Shown here: piece after piece, positions 6,580 to 30,511 of the stretch
How positions within the stretch are numbered: position 1 is the first letter of the stretch
Layout: every line of letters starts with the position of its first letter
DNA from: Geobacteraceae bacterium
Lineage (GTDB): Bacteria > Desulfobacterota > Desulfuromonadia > Desulfuromonadales > BM103
DNA length: 37,547 nucleotides
NCBI GenBank assembly: GCA_024641085.1
Contig: JAHEDT010000008.1
Coordinates: 1 to 37,547, forward strand
Direction: 5' to 3'
Notes under the pieces: model-generated
Databases searched by the model: none
What the model was told of the DNA's origin: nothing
Seen by the model: the letters and a program-made list of their open reading frames with translations, nothing else
Translations under genes and position numbers: made by a program

Positions 6580-7743
6580 CTAAAATGACGGGGAGATTCT
6601 GTGTATCCCGAATTCATGGTGACGCAGGCTTTCGGCTTTGGGCAGGTGCCCGTTGGCGGCCTTGATGATCTCTTCAAAGAGGCGCTGTCCAACCTGATCG
6701 ACCGTTTCTTCACCGGCAAGGATCGACGAGGCGTCGATGTCGATATTCTCCTCCATCATCCGGTAAGTGCGGGCGTTGCCGGTCACCTTGATGACGGGGG
6801 CGAGCGGCGAACCCGTTGGTGTACCGCGGCCCGTGGTAAAAATGGCCACCTGTGCGCCTCCGGCCAGCAGACCCGTGATCGTCTCGATGTCCTGCCCCGG
6901 GGTGTCCATGACGTACAGTCCCTTGCCGCTTGGTGCTTCGCCGTAGGGCAGGACCCCCTGGATCGGCTTGTGGCCGGCCCGGTAGATGCAGCCCAGCGAC
7001 TTCTCTTCAAGGGTCGTGATGCCCCCGCTGATGTTACGCGGGGTTGGCTGCCCATTGCGCAAATCGCCATTGACAAGCTTGGCGCGCTCTTCACATCGAC
7101 CGACAAGGTGCAGGATCTCCTCACCGATGGCAGGGGTTTTCGCCCGGCGGGCCAGGATGTGTTCAGCGCCGATAAACTCGGTGGTCACCGCCAGCATGGC
7201 CGTGCCGCCCCAGGTCGTCAGCATGTCGGCAGCGACCCCGGCCGCCGGATTCGCAGCAAGCCCTGAGGTGAAGTCGGAACCGCCGCACTCGACAGCCAAC
7301 GTCAACTCACTGACACTGACCTTCTCGCGCTGCAAGTGGGCCACCTGGCGAGCGATCCGGCTGGCCTTGTGCACACCCTCGGCCGTGGCCTGCAAGGTGC
7401 CGCCGGCCTCCTGGATCACAACCACTTCGACCAGCTTGCCGCTGGCCGCGATCTCCTCCGCAACCTGGTCTACAGTGATCCCGTCACAACCCAGGCCGAT
7501 CACGAGAGCCGCGGCCACGTTGGGGTTCTTCCCCAGGCCGATCAAGGTCCTCACCGTCTGTTCATGATCCGTCCCCAACTGGCAGCAGCCCTGCTGGTTG
7601 GCCAAGGACACTACGCCGGGGACCTGCGCGGCAATGTTGCAAGCGACCGTGCTGGAACAGACCGATGTCGGGATAATGGCAATATGGTTGCGGATGCCGA
7701 CCCTGCCATCGGCACGGCGATAGCCAAGGAACTCCATCTTCAT
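6580..7743 (-). CDS. UxaA-family lyase/dehydratase, large subunit
   Basis: 387 residues, matching the C-terminal catalytic part of altronate/galactarate dehydratases (UxaA, GarD) and the large subunit of (2R)-sulfolactate sulfo-lyase (SuyB). Visible family motifs are [12 protein letters not shown] near the start, [16 protein letters not shown] near 73-88 and [18 protein letters not shown] in the C-terminal half. The family metal-site motif usually written HxxGC reads N49-Q-Q-G-C53 here, so the histidine is replaced. The family eliminates water, or sulfite in SuyAB, from hydroxyacids. The start is ATG 7743 (MKMEF, after GGGAACAG) or ATG 7737; longer in-frame starts run through the small-subunit gene. 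It pairs with the small subunit 19 bases upstream. Substrate is unknown. Confidence 0.85.
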
Positions 7744-7762
7744 CTGTTCCCAGATGCTGCCT

Positions 7763-8050
7763 TCAAGAACCGCCGCGCCCACGCCGACTTTCCACATTGT
7801 GAACATGCACGTGTTCCCCTGGGTTGATGTTTGCCGTCGCCCTGCCGATGCTTTCGCCGTATTTGATGACATCCGCGCCGGCCAGAATCTCGCATATGGC
7901 GCACTTGTGCCCCATGGGCGTATCTTGCAGAAGCTGAACCGTCCCCTCGGAATGACCCAGCGCATAATTGAGGATCGTCCCCGCCGGAAAATCATCGACC
8001 ACGGTCGCAACGTTGTCCTTGGCGTTGATGACGACAGCTTGCTTTTTCAA
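7763..8050 (-). CDS. UxaA-family lyase, small SAF-domain subunit
   Basis: 95 residues. It matches the N-terminal SAF domain of UxaA/GarD and the small subunit SuyA of sulfolactate sulfo-lyase: GHKCAICEILAGADVIKYGE in the middle, then IG and GEHVHVHNV near the end. The SAF domain forms part of the active site next to the large subunit. The start codon is TTG at 8050, supported by AAGGAG seven bases upstream; the family similarity begins at once (KKQAVVINAKDN). Splitting the enzyme into two genes is typical of SuyAB and of some sugar-acid dehydratases. It lies 225 bases behind tatA. Confidence 0.87.
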   Translation of the reverse strand: MKKQAVVINAKDNVATVVDDFPAGTILNYALGHSEGTVQLLQDTPMGHKCAICEILAGADVIKYGESIGRATANINPGEHVHVHNVESRRGRGGS

Positions 8051-14233: not shown

Positions 14234-17200
14234 GATGGTCACCTCCTTGAGGAGCTGTCTCTGTGGCAGGTTTCTTTCGGCGGCTGAACAGCCCGGTGGC
14301 GTTTTCGAGCACCACGAAGAAAAGCGGCACGAAAAAGGAGGCCACCAGGGTCGAGGCGAGCATGCCGCCGATGACCCCGGTTCCGATCGCGTGTAGGCTG
14401 TTGGCACCGGCGCCTGTGGCAATCGCCATGGGGACGCAACCAAGAATAAAAGCCAATGACGTCATGACGATCGGTCGCAGTCGCAGTCGGGCTGCCTCGA
14501 TCGCCGCCTCGGCGACTTCCATCCCGTTATGCAGATTTTCCACGGCGAACTCGATGATCAGGATAGCGTTCTTGGCCGCCAGTCCGACCAGGGTGACCAT
14601 CCCGACCTGGAAGTAGACGTCGTTTTCCAAGCCGCGCACCCAGGTCAGCAGCAGGGCACCACAGATAGCAAACGGCACCGCCATGACCACGCCGACCGGC
14701 AGTGACCATTTTTCATACTGGGCGGCCAGAATCAGGAACACCATGATCAGGCCGAAGATGAAAGCGGAACTCGAGGTGCCGCCGGACTTTTTTTCCTCGA
14801 ACGCCTGACCGGACCAGGCAAAACCGTAGCCGGAAGGAAGGACCTCGGCGGCGACCGCCTCCATGGCAGCGATCGCCTCCCCGCTGCTGTAGCCAGGGGC
14901 CTGACTGCCAGTCAACTTGGCTGCAGGGAAGTTGTTGAAGCGCGGCAACAGACCGGGACCGGCGACATAGCGGACCGTGGCCAAAGCCGAGAGAGGGATC
15001 ATGCTGCCGTTTCTCGATCGCACGTAGATCTGTTGAAAATCCAAGGGTTCGTCGCGATACTTGGGCTCAGCCTGGATGATAACTTGCCAGATACGGCCAA
15101 AATCGACGAACTGAGAGACGTAGGAGGAACCGAAATAGGCCTGCAGGGTCTGGTAGACGTCCGCAACAGGAACCCCGAGAAGTTCCGCTCGAGGACGGTC
15201 AAGATCGAAATAGAGCTGCTGCTCCGAAGCGGAGTAGGTCGTCGAAACGCCGGCCAGGGTCTTGTTCTCACGGGCTTTGGCCACGAATTGCTTGGTCACC
15301 TTGTCCAGGTCCTGTGGACTGCCGCCGCCCATGCTCTGAATGTAGAATTCAAAGCCGCCGGTGGTTCCCAGGCCCGGGATCGATGGCGGGTTGAGGGGAA
15401 AGACGATGCTGTCCTTGATGCCGGCCAGTTGCTTACGGGTCTCTGCGACCACAGCAAAGGCCGTCTCCGTCTTGGCCTTGCGCTCCTCGTAGGATTTGAG
15501 TGAGGCAAACATCAAGGCCGTATTGGTCTTGTACTGGCTGTCGATGATGCTGTAGCCGTCGATCTGGGCGATCGCACTGATAGCGGGGTTCTCCAGCAGC
15601 ATCTTGACAGACCGATCGCTGACGGCCGTGGTCCGTTCCAGGCTGGATGCGTCGGGCATGATGCTGCCGACGAAGATGTAGCCCTGGTCTTCCTCGGGAA
15701 CAAAACTGCCCGGAACGACACCAAAGAGAGTGACCGTGCCGAATAGCACCCCGCCAAACAGCAGCATACCGATCAGCTTGTGACCGATCAGCCAGCGGAC
15801 ACCGACCACATAGTGATTGGTCACCCAGGTAAAGCCGTTTTCAAACCACTTGAAGAACCCTTTCTTCTCATGATGGCCCGGCTTTAAAATACGGGCCGCC
15901 AGTGCCGGCGAGAGGGTCAGGGCGACCACGCCAGAGATCACCATGGAGATGGCGATGGTGATGGCGAACTGCTTGTAAAGGGTTCCGGTCATGCCGCCCA
16001 GGAAGGCGACTGGCAAAAAGACCGAGACCAACACCATGACGATGGCGACCAGGGCCCCGGCCAACTCCTGCATCGCCTTGCATGCCGCATCATAGGGCGT
16101 CATCTTTAGAGTGGCCATGTTGTGCTCGACATTCTCGACCACGATAATAGCGTCGTCGACCACCAGGCCGATGGCCAGGATCATACCGAACAGAGTGAGC
16201 ATGTTGGTCGAGAAACCAAGGGCCAAGATACCGATGTAGGTGCCGACGATGCAGATCGGCACGGCGATGATCGGGATGAGGGTGGCGCGGAAGCTCTGCA
16301 GGAAGAGGAAGACCACCAGCACTACCAGGATGACCGCCTCGAAAAAGGTGTGCACCACTTTTTCGATAGACGCTTCGGTGAACTTGCTGGTGTCAAGCAC
16401 GATATTGTAGGTTAGACCGTCAGGGAAACTCGGCTTGACCTGATCAATCAAGGCACGAACCTTGGCCGAGGTCTCGATGGCATTGGCCCCGGGCTGCTGG
16501 TAGACGATAATGGCCGCTGAGGTTTTACCGTTGACCTTTGCCCGTAGCGAGTAATCCTTGGACCCGAGCTCGGCATGACCGACATCCTTGAGACGAACGA
16601 TCGCCGAACCATTGGCCTCGGTGCGGAGGATGATCTCGTCGAATTCGGCGGGCTTGGTGAGCATTCCCTGGGAGGTGACGACAAAGCTTTGCTGGGTACC
16701 CTCCGTGGTTGGCACCTGGCCGATCCGGCCGACGCCAAAGGCCTGGTTCTGCCCGGAGATGGCGTTGGCAACGTCATTGGCGGTCAGACCCATCTGCGCC
16801 AGGCGGTCGGGCTTGAGCCAGATACGCATGGCGACATCCGGGGTCGGCATCATGCTGGAGAGGTTGGCGCCGGGGATGCGCTTGATCGCATCGAGCAGAT
16901 AGAGATTGACGTAGTTGCCTAGATAAGTCTGATCGTAGCGGTCGTCTTCGGCGTAGAAGCTGATGACCATCATGAAAGCGTTGGAACGCTTCTGCACGAT
17001 GACCCCCTGCTTGGCAACCACCTCGGGCAATTGAGCATTGGCCTGGCTGACGCGATTCTGCACGTTAACCTGGGCCTGGTCGGGATCGGTTCCCGGGTTG
17101 AAGGTCACGGTCAGGGTCATGTTGCCGGTCGAAGAACTGGTCGAAAGCATGTAGCTCATGTCATCGACGCCGTTGACCTGAGCCTCGATAGGTGCGGCCA

Positions 17201-28874: not shown

Positions 28875-29201
28875 ATGAAAACGTCCCTTCTCATATCAGT
28901 AATTTTTCTGACCGGCCTGCTGCGAACGGCCGGTGCCGCGACCGAGATGCCGGCCGACATGGCAAAGGCGACCTTCGCCGTACACTGCTACGATGTCGGC
29001 GCCAATGCTCTCGCCGGCAAGCCTGGGGTCATCTCTGTGGAGCGCGGCTGGAGTGGCGCCCGGGAAGTCGACCGGGTCGTCTACAACCCCCGTGAGGTCT
29101 CTCTCAGGCAAATCGAAACCTGGCTCAAGGAGTCCGACACTTACGTCAGCACCCTGGAGGCCGAGGCCGACACCATGCCAGCAAAGAAAATGTTACAATG
29201 A
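28875..29201 (+). CDS. Small exported protein, HMA-like fold, next to msrA
   Basis: 108 residues. A signal peptide (about 1-21, ending TAGA/ATEM) is followed by a compact domain. The pattern of that domain (ATFAVHCYDVGANALAGKPGV with ISVERGW and VVYNPREVSLRQIETWLKES) recalls heavy-metal-associated domains: beta-alpha-beta with GV and Y-x-P landmarks. The usual CxxC metal motif is reduced to one cysteine (HCYD). Start 28875 follows AAAGGACC. It precedes msrA by 83 bases. I do not recognise a named function; a periplasmic partner of MsrA or a metal/thiol sensor is a guess. Confidence 0.75.
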   Translation: MKTSLLISVIFLTGLLRTAGAATEMPADMAKATFAVHCYDVGANALAGKPGVISVERGWSGAREVDRVVYNPREVSLRQIETWLKESDTYVSTLEAEADTMPAKKMLQ

Positions 29202-29284: not shown

Positions 29285-29833
29285 ATGGAGAAGAATAACG
29301 CGATGACGGCCAGGGCCATCTTCGCCGGAGGGTGCTTCTGGTGCATGGACCCCCCCTTCGCAAAACTCGACGGGGTCCGGACCGTCGTTTCCGGCTATAT
29401 CGGCGGACACGGTGAGAATCCCACTTACCAGGAGGTGTGCACCGGGGCAACCGGCCATGCCGAAGCGATCGAGATCACCTATGGTCCAGGCATCATCAGC
29501 TATGAACAGCTGCTCGAGGTGTTCTGGATGAATATTGACCCCACCGACGAAAGCGGCCAGTTCGTCGATCGCGGCAGCCAGTACCGCTCCGGGATCTTCT
29601 ACCTCGACCAGGAGCAGAAGCGGCTCGCCGAGGCGTCCAGGGACCGGCTGGCCGAATCCGGCCGTTTCAGCAGGCCAATCGTCACCGAGATCGTCGCTGC
29701 CACTCAGTTCTATCCGGCGGAAGGCTACCACCAGGGCTACTGCAGGACAAACCCGGTGGACTACAACCTCTACAGGTACAGCTCGGGGCGCGACCAGTTC
29801 CTGGGAAAGGCCTGGGGGAAGCGGGAAAAATAA
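29285..29833 (+). CDS. msrA: Peptide-methionine (S)-S-oxide reductase
   Basis: 182 residues. The catalytic motif GCFWC is at 16-20 with C17 as the nucleophile. The family stretches SGYIGGHGENPTYQEVCTG, TGHAEAIEI and QYRSGIFY follow, and YHQGYCRTNP in the C-terminal part holds a probable resolving cysteine. MsrA reduces methionine-S-sulfoxide in oxidised proteins using thioredoxin-type electrons. No signal peptide, so cytoplasmic. AAGGAG precedes ATG 29285. It stands between an exported small protein and the selenocysteine peroxiredoxin. Confidence 0.96.
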   Translation: MEKNNAMTARAIFAGGCFWCMDPPFAKLDGVRTVVSGYIGGHGENPTYQEVCTGATGHAEAIEITYGPGIISYEQLLEVFWMNIDPTDESGQFVDRGSQYRSGIFYLDQEQKRLAEASRDRLAESGRFSRPIVTEIVAATQFYPAEGYHQGYCRTNPVDYNLYRYSSGRDQFLGKAWGKREK

Positions 29834-29872: not shown

Positions 29873-29900
29873 TTGGCAGGAGGCTCTCTTGCGGTATAGT
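29873..29900 (+). promoter_or_regulatory. Promoter of the selenocysteine peroxiredoxin gene
   Basis: TTGGCA (29873-29878), 16 bases, then TATAGT (29895-29900): each box has one mismatch to consensus. Transcription would start near 29907, leaving a leader of only about 17 bases. Confidence 0.55.
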
Positions 29901-29923
29901 TCGTAAAACGAAAGGAGCTTGTG

Positions 29924-30403
29924 ATGAAACGGATGATTCGTGCCGGCGCCGTGGTTGCGGCGACCCTGCTGGCGTCAAAGGCCGCCGCCCTGCAGATCGG
30001 CGATGCGGCGCCAGCCTTTTCCGCACCCTCCACCAGGGGCGAGATCGAGCTCAGCCGTGCACTCGAGAAGGGGCCGGTGATCCTGGCCCTCTACTACGCC
30101 GATTTCACCTCTGGATGAACCAGCGAGATGCAGGCTTTTCAAGACGACTTCGTGCGTTTTGCAGAGCTCAACGCCCAGGTGCTGGGCGTCAGTTCCGACT
30201 CGCTGGAAACCCACCGGGAATTCGCCGTCAAGCTGGGCCTGAACTTTCCACTGGTTGCTGATGACGGCACGATCCGCAAGATGTATGGCGGTGGCCGGAT
30301 GACTTATCTCATCGACCAAACCGGCATCATTCGCTATGTGCACAAGGGGATGCCGGACAACACCCGGCTGATTAAGGAGATTGACAACCTTCAGTCGCAT
30401 TGA
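29924..30403 (+). CDS. Selenocysteine-containing peroxiredoxin (in-frame UGA), exported
   Basis: 159 residues if UGA at 30116-30118 is read as selenocysteine (U65). The frame is open on both sides of that codon. The stretch DFTSG-U-TSEMQAF lines up with the DFTPGCTxE active site of AhpC/TSA (BCP-like) peroxiredoxins, so U replaces the peroxidatic cysteine. Conventional annotation would give two fragments, 29924-30118 and 30128-30403. The N-terminus (MKRMIRAGAVVAATLLASKAAA) is a probable signal peptide, so the enzyme would act in the periplasm. AAAGGAG precedes ATG 29924. A short ACG/CGU hairpin 26 bases past the UGA is the best SECIS candidate I can see, and it is weak. A pseudogene is the alternative, but the exact position of the stop argues against it. 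Confidence 0.87.
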
Positions 30404-30469
30404 CCGACCGGGGACCGCGGAGAGCCGCCATTAAACAAGGGCTGGGAGCCAGAGGTCATAATAGAATAA

Positions 30470-30504
30470 AAAGGCCTCAGCACATGAGCCGTGCTGAGGC
30501 CTTT
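30470..30504. terminator. Bidirectional terminator between the peroxiredoxin gene and the tRNA genes
   Basis: AAAGGCCTCAGCAC (30470-30483) pairs perfectly with GTGCTGAGGCCTTT (30491-30504) around a 7-base loop. T-rich DNA follows on both strands. It ends the peroxiredoxin transcript from the left and the tRNA-Ser/tRNA-Arg transcript from the right. Confidence 0.88.
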
Positions 30505-30511
30505 CTTTAAA

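Follow-up and report, generated by a model that had tools for sequence, protein, structure and literature searches.

The reading frame described here, from a Geobacteraceae bacterium, raises the question of whether a UGA codon located at the catalytic position of a peroxiredoxin terminates the protein or specifies selenocysteine (Sec). The frame lies in the window, by which we mean the whole stretch of DNA analyzed, 37,547 nt of contig JAHEDT010000008.1, belonging to a draft genome of 151 contigs. It starts with the ATG at 29924 and terminates with the TGA at 30401-30403. A preliminary description, based on the letters alone, reported an in-frame UGA followed by a further 95 codons; the UGA and the long continuing frame were confirmed, although the two TGAs enclose 94 sense codons and 95 is obtained only by counting the stop. 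The placement of this UGA at the peroxidatic position was borne out as well, with the TGA found at codon 65 within DFTSG-U-TSEM. The read-through product contains the active-site stretch YYADFTSG-U-TSEM and no Cys among its 159 residues. When the TGA was read as a residue, the frame matched PF00578 (AhpC/TSA) over residues 25-139 at 5e-28, with a score of 98 bits against a gathering cut-off of 26. The part after the TGA matched PF00578 by itself at 3.5e-16, and the 64 residues before it matched no Pfam family by themselves at E 0.001. The conventional ORF list splits the gene into a 65-aa ORF (29921-30118) and a 91-aa ORF (30128-30403), and judging from this list, the two-fragment mis-annotation proposed in the same description is expected; an antisense ORF of 141 aa at 29975-30400 could also be called in its place. 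In Desulfococcus multivorans, one Sec peroxiredoxin bears two locus tags (PMC5109826). The gene neatly illustrates how a stop codon can conceal a catalytic residue from ordinary ORF calling.

Table 1. Positions of the peroxiredoxin gene, its associated elements in the window, and TGA-containing relatives on other contigs of the same genome (G000)
Feature	Position	Strand	Remarks
Peroxiredoxin gene (putative selenoprotein)	29924..30403	+	159 residues, Sec at residue 65, TGA stop
In-frame TGA (UGA)	30116..30118	+	Codon 65, peroxidatic position; Sec codon
Putative bacterial SECIS hairpin	30134..30167	+	Arms 30134-30146 / 30155-30167, loop 30147-30154
N-terminal leader, probable signal peptide	29924..29989	+	Residues 1-22, AAA-type site, by eye
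Promoter-like site TTGGCA-16-TATAGT	29873..29900	+	Between msrA and the peroxiredoxin gene; 10/12 matches, 0.8 expected by chance in the stretch scanned
GC-rich inverted repeat, probable terminator	30468..30506	.	17 pairs, scored on the - strand; after the peroxiredoxin gene
AhpC-like peroxiredoxin L183	C110:77696-78037		In-frame TGA, DFTFV-U-ATEF; C-terminal Cys; peroxidatic position by eye
Peroxiredoxin-like protein L184	C147:27839-28183		In-frame TGA in U-P-Y-C motif, placed by eye
Paralogue of the window gene, L074/L181	C151:63963-64382		TGA at the same position

Based on sequence comparison, this is almost certainly a genuine selenoprotein gene, in which UGA codon 65 encodes the Sec of a thioredoxin-fold AhpC/TSA peroxiredoxin. 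The selenoprotein reading, already put forward in the preliminary description, is supported by conservation of the UGA, protein-level constraint downstream of it, a covarying hairpin and the presence of selA, selB and selD.

To characterize conservation of the UGA, 277 genomes of the class were searched. The best 58 matches (E <= 5e-33), including two from the window's own genome, all contain an in-frame TGA, and four of them have an additional TAA inside the matched stretch. The match ranked directly after these (E 1.4e-19) has no in-frame TGA, and below it matches with and without TGA both occur. Alignment with Sec- and Cys-containing relatives, as the preliminary description had suggested, revealed TGA at the homologous codon in 46 and TGC in 6 of 52 class loci read out, a partly hand-chosen set made up of 30 loci for the best class matches, two paralogues and 20 picked by hand, six of the latter having been listed without a stop in the 277-genome search. 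The six TGC loci (L080-L084 and L096) are PrxQ-like and score 169-214, a range that overlaps with the four most divergent TGA loci, L088-L091 (186-202). One of these, L089 (G123 C5), has LLLLAC near its start, a lipoprotein-like site by eye, and is possibly a membrane-anchored Sec peroxiredoxin.

A second collection of named genomes, overlapping in part with the class collection, was scanned with two peptide patterns derived from our own alignment, one of which demands Tyr or Pro at the conserved Pro position, and its counts are weighted to close relatives and to Tyr/Pro. Among the best 80 of 533 relatives, 47 carry TGA and 33 carry TGC or TGT. The 45 best-scoring loci of these 80 (L100-L144) all have TGA at the exact codon and none has Cys; by record titles they belong to Desulfuromonadales, Geobacter, Geomonas, Geomobilimonas, Nitrospirota and one Desulfobulbaceae genome. 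Since these 45 are all Sec and none Cys, something in the chemistry of the clade seems to require selenium. A tree was built from the 80 loci kept from the scan (best 80 of 533) together with 12 class loci out of the 52, giving 92 rows, of which 54 are Sec and 38 Cys. It rests on short data and leaves many forks unresolved; in it, 52 Sec rows group together, joined by a single Cys row on a long branch (L165). The opposite side is made up mostly of Cys proteins that we take to be PrxQ-like, and the Sec/Cys label takes 3 changes. Two Sec rows lie on this Cys side, outside the main Sec clade: L150 (Vicinamibacteria) and L176 (Dehalococcoidia), peroxiredoxins with TGA at the peroxidatic position, which are possibly separate Cys-to-Sec changes.

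The window gene was compared with 16 relatives over the 83 codons that directly follow the TGA. There, dN was 0.13-0.24 and dS, defined in 14 of the 16 comparisons, 0.54-2.36, giving dN/dS of 0.08-0.29 in those 14. Differences at codon positions 1, 2 and 3 numbered 275, 186 and 598. The low dN/dS and the predominance of third-position differences therefore indicate that the part after the UGA is under selection as protein.

A putative SECIS hairpin lies downstream of the UGA. In the window, 12 of its 13 pairs form, with one U-C mismatch, and the spacing from UGA to loop is 28 nt. The 13-pair helix corresponds to columns 19-31 / 40-52 of an alignment of 25 sequences, 23 of them distinct, across which 94.0% of helix cells are paired. 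Twelve cells are changed on both sides against a shuffled mean of 3.4, and 0 of 500 shuffles reached this value, a control that leaves room for relatedness to inflate the score. Pair 29/42 occurs as A-U, G-C and C-G, and pair 30/41 as C-G, U-A and U-G. When the 3' arm is displaced by one, two or three columns, pairing drops to 25-60%, a comparison that favors the helix as it was picked from the same sequences on which it was scored; RNAalifold independently predicts 11 of the 13 pairs. Two measures were ordinary in comparison with shuffles, namely both-sides-changed pairs (377 of 500 as high) and further pair types (379 of 500). Columns 24 and 47 fail to pair in 8 of the 23 sequences, and a broader set of 38 more varied sequences has a larger number of broken pairs. 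By single-sequence folding the best structure varies with the stretch taken: the fold was no more stable than shuffles for 60 nt (z -0.76, 44 of 200 as good) or 45 nt (z +0.61), and the 45-nt stretch beginning directly after the UGA gave z -2.0 with a different fold. We disfavor the rival helix of the single-sequence fold, since it is only in the upper hairpin that column 29 pairs with 42 and column 30 with 41, the columns that covary. The published bacterial SECIS model has a loop of 3-9 nt, an upper stem of 4-16 bp, a G at loop position 1 or 2 and a spacing of 16-37 nt (PMC13188914). The stem length, the 28-nt spacing and the 8-nt loop fit this part of the model; for the invariant G to stand at loop position 1 or 2, the top pair would have to open, which gives a 10-nt loop against the 3-9 nt of the model.

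Absence of the selenocysteine machinery had been named in advance as the finding that would count against selenocysteine, and the search for it gave the opposite result. The genes selA (618.6 bits, cut-off 267.9), selB (397.2, cut-off 242.25) and selD (373.9, cut-off 125) are all located on contig C146, and SelD carries its own in-frame TGA at SSG-U-AAK. The fourth gene, selC (tRNA-Sec), was not found in this genome's assembly by the Rfam model or by DNA search. The Rfam search scored 150 of 440 first-look candidates, and later 96 of 441; its matches are other tRNAs, the best being tRNA-Trp. The exact pattern GGTTCAAATCC, tried as selC, occurs in seven places, of which four fall on ordinary tRNA genes and the remaining three on no tRNA gene. 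A DNA search with the tRNA-Sec of G007 was positive in G008 and negative in this genome, its genus mate G005 and G021. These three are the exceptions among 31 genomes searched, the other 28 having a clear tRNA-Sec match (E 1.2e-13 or better), and G021 also has a TGA-containing peroxiredoxin. ARAGORN called tRNA-SeC in 10 of 10 loci so tested.

The location of selC in relatives offers an explanation for its absence. In G011, G015 and G017, selC adjoins two genes, taken here to be ispG and a yedF-like gene. The G011 copy of selC begins at position 14760 of L071, shortly after the yedF-like ORF ends at 14751, with ispG on the far side of this ORF. Contig C31 of the window's genome is syntenic with G011 and ends within the gene next to ispG. 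The yedF-like gene had no match in this genome or in G005 in a search run without a positive control, and tblastn found it in G015 and G017. ispG was likewise without a match in this genome; G011 and G015 have it, and in G005 a contig end truncates it. These bacteria should need ispG. Because C31 ends near ispG, and ispG and the yedF-like gene are missing too, an assembly gap is likelier than a loss of selC, and based on synteny selC was probably swallowed by such a gap at its expected locus. A gap of N between selB and selD (L017, 7651-7750) was also considered as the selC site and set aside, as synteny points to the ispG region. Both flanks of this 100-base gap (L017, C146, ~7520-7860) look alike, repeats included, which suggests an assembly artefact.

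If the UGA were a true stop, the gene would be a pseudogene, or a sequencing error would be present where a Cys codon stood or still stands. A draft assembly in 151 contigs lends this some plausibility; however, the same TGA recurs across genera, in 46 of the 52 chosen loci and in all 45 best-scoring loci of the best 80 of 533, and the codons after it are under purifying selection, which makes a stop very improbable. It is harder still to credit that UGA is read as an ordinary amino acid without Sec, either genome-wide through a reassigned code or by general readthrough. The frame that stays open across the TGA and the failure to find selC in the assembly are compatible with such decoding, but the same gene terminates in TGA, the internal TGA is precisely at the catalytic residue, and selA, selB and selD are present. 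For the selenocysteine reading, homology and covariation point to a mechanism in which UGA codon 65 would be decoded by SelB and Sec-tRNA, directed by the hairpin whose loop lies 28 nt downstream.

The structural model of the protein (pLDDT 86.2) has its best match in BcpB 5epf (Z 23.0, rmsd 1.4, 137 residues), with 5enu, Bcp1 3drn and Bcp4 3hjp as the other best solved relatives, and the 1-Cys AhpE at Z about 22. Thr62, at Cp-3, and Arg125 are present, and both are invariant in 22 aligned proteins. All 45 best-scoring Sec loci (among the best 80 of 533) have a Thr or Ser at Sec-3, and all 45 show a loose downstream Arg-Thr/Ser pattern. Tyr58 occupies the Pro position of the PxxxTxxC motif, and the protein has TxxU and lacks the full PxxxTxxU. 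A review calls PxxxTxxU highly conserved and, in a table, lists the family under TxxU alone (PMC13188914). In the named-genome set (best 80 of 533), Pro is present in 33/33 Cys homologues in comparison to 4/45 closest Sec loci, the remaining 41 having Y (32), F (8) or I (1), where the Tyr share is not a fair sample given that one scan pattern asked for Tyr or Pro. In the class set, Pro occurs in 6/6 TGC loci and 10/46 TGA loci (Y 24, F 12). The domain is without Cys in 42 of the 45 closest Sec loci (best 80 of 533) and in 41 of 46 in the class set. Among the loci examined, Tyr or Phe in place of Pro is confined to Sec members, and this swap provides a direct way to probe what selenium allows at the active site of a peroxiredoxin.

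These departures would also suit a Sec protein that is not chiefly a peroxidase but senses redox state, works as a thiol/selenol oxidoreductase or reduces some other substrate: Tyr58 stands for the Pro kept in 33/33 Cys homologues and in only 4/45 closest (best 80 of 533) and 10/46 class Sec loci, and the chain is without Cys. We judge this unlikely, given that the Thr/Ser at Sec-3 and the Arg-Thr/Ser pattern persist in 45/45 closest Sec loci (best 80 of 533), that Arg125 is invariant in the 22 aligned proteins, and that the fold and the position of Sec are those of a peroxiredoxin. For a peroxidase, family chemistry suggests that the Sec65 selenolate, aided by Thr62 and Arg125, would attack the peroxide and yield a selenenic acid. 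The chain has no Cys and therefore could form no intrachain selenenylsulfide; an outside reductant would be needed, as in 1-Cys peroxiredoxins. Candidate reductants of the oxidised Sec are HS-, a small thiol or a protein thiol. Prx6-type 1-Cys enzymes are reported to be reduced rapidly by HS- (PMC12697902), which, speculatively, makes sulfide a candidate reductant in such anaerobes.

The enzyme may work outside the cytoplasm, as its leader suggests, and this is the weakest step of the proposed mechanism. The leader sequence is MKRMIRAGAVVAATLLASKAAA, and residues 1-20 have pLDDT <50. Inspected by eye, leaders in many of the 45 relatives look signal-like, several with charged residues in the hydrophobic stretch, and L116, L118 and L119 are without one. 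From the sequence, export of the peroxiredoxin appears likely. It is a tentative and rather doubtful proposal that these proteins, from anaerobic Desulfuromonadales, relatives of Geobacter and Nitrospirota, constitute a distinct subclass of 1-Sec peroxiredoxins that is Sec-only, exported and free of Cys. In this subclass the usual Pro would have given way to Tyr or Phe, and the oxidised Sec would be reset by an extracytoplasmic reductant such as sulfide, and not by a resolving Cys and thioredoxin.

The window gene joins the already known Sec peroxiredoxins with TxxU, in print since at least 2005 and including Geobacter. Earlier surveys describe 43 TxxU Sec peroxiredoxin sequences in a Sargasso Sea set (PMC1088965), 12 in genomes, apparently from five Cys-to-Sec events, the holders including the Deltaproteobacteria Anaeromyxobacter dehalogenans and Geobacter metallireducens (PMC1794560), and 253 in the GOS marine metagenomes (PMC2398784); a figure of TxxU peroxiredoxins names the same two species among others in its legend (PMC1914089). 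The window protein shares with this family (PF00578/COG1225) the Sec at the peroxidatic position and the Thr three residues before it, and appears to differ in being Cys-free, in having Tyr for the usual Pro and in its leader. Its active site is mildly unusual, and its clade is the less ordinary part, with 45/45 Sec, 42/45 Cys-free and 41/45 with Pro replaced among the best-scoring of the best 80 of 533.

In both sequence and fold, the protein resembles PrxQ/BCP, with Bcp1 3drn, Bcp4 3hjp and BcpB 5epf among the best solved structures; 2-Cys members have a resolving Cys at Cp+5 (22 of 33 Cys homologues, best 80 of 533), where the window protein has Gln70. With the 1-Cys AhpE and Prx6-type enzymes it has in common a single chalcogen residue without a resolving partner. 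AhpE, however, has Cys in place of Sec and is 25-26% identical, and the Prx6-type chains matched are longer (6p0w, 201 residues; 6q5v, 208; 5b6m, 214) than the 159 of the window protein. PrxU (NF040737), presumably a Sec enzyme of Eubacterium acidaminophilum, is a peroxiredoxin family too; at 43.1 bits against a cut-off of 270, the window protein is not a member.

The gene is probably transcribed alone, between a promoter-like site and a probable terminator (Table 1). A T-rich stretch follows the inverted repeat on the + strand by eye, and terminator-like sites numbered 3 against 2.1 expected in shuffles. A Cys-type msrA (GCFWC) lies just upstream of the peroxiredoxin gene at 29285-29833. Farther upstream, a two-component system is followed at 28875-29201 by a small protein with a signal-like start, retained with it beside the peroxiredoxin in L115; this small protein matches only positions 141-210 of the 287 in NF041383 (VPGUxxT thioredoxin-like (seleno)protein) with 40.8 bits, against a cut-off of 275. 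The neighbors in L100-L144 were searched over a flank of at most 3 kb and often less. Within it, no close msrA was found beside the peroxiredoxin, distant ones being limited to L128 and L130; L115 was the only locus in which response regulator, kinase and small protein all had close matches, with a distant response regulator in L103 and L111 and a distant kinase in L104 and L112. An operon with msrA or the two-component system was rejected, as the neighbors are mostly not kept within the flanks of these loci. A search against plasmids gave no DNA match and protein matches only at <60% identity.

Additional Sec genes in the window are possible. Mechanically, 70 UGA-gene candidates were listed and 6 were left after removing those under longer ORFs, a poor filter that also dropped the peroxiredoxin gene owing to its antisense ORF. 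In the whole genome, a family profile search revealed six peroxiredoxin- or thioredoxin-like genes, four of them with an internal TGA; in the three further TGA-containing peroxiredoxin-like genes, the TGA is at the active-site position by eye (Table 1). L183 looks like a second kind of Sec peroxiredoxin by its sequence. The paralogue on C151 retains the active-site Pro and is without a similar leader.
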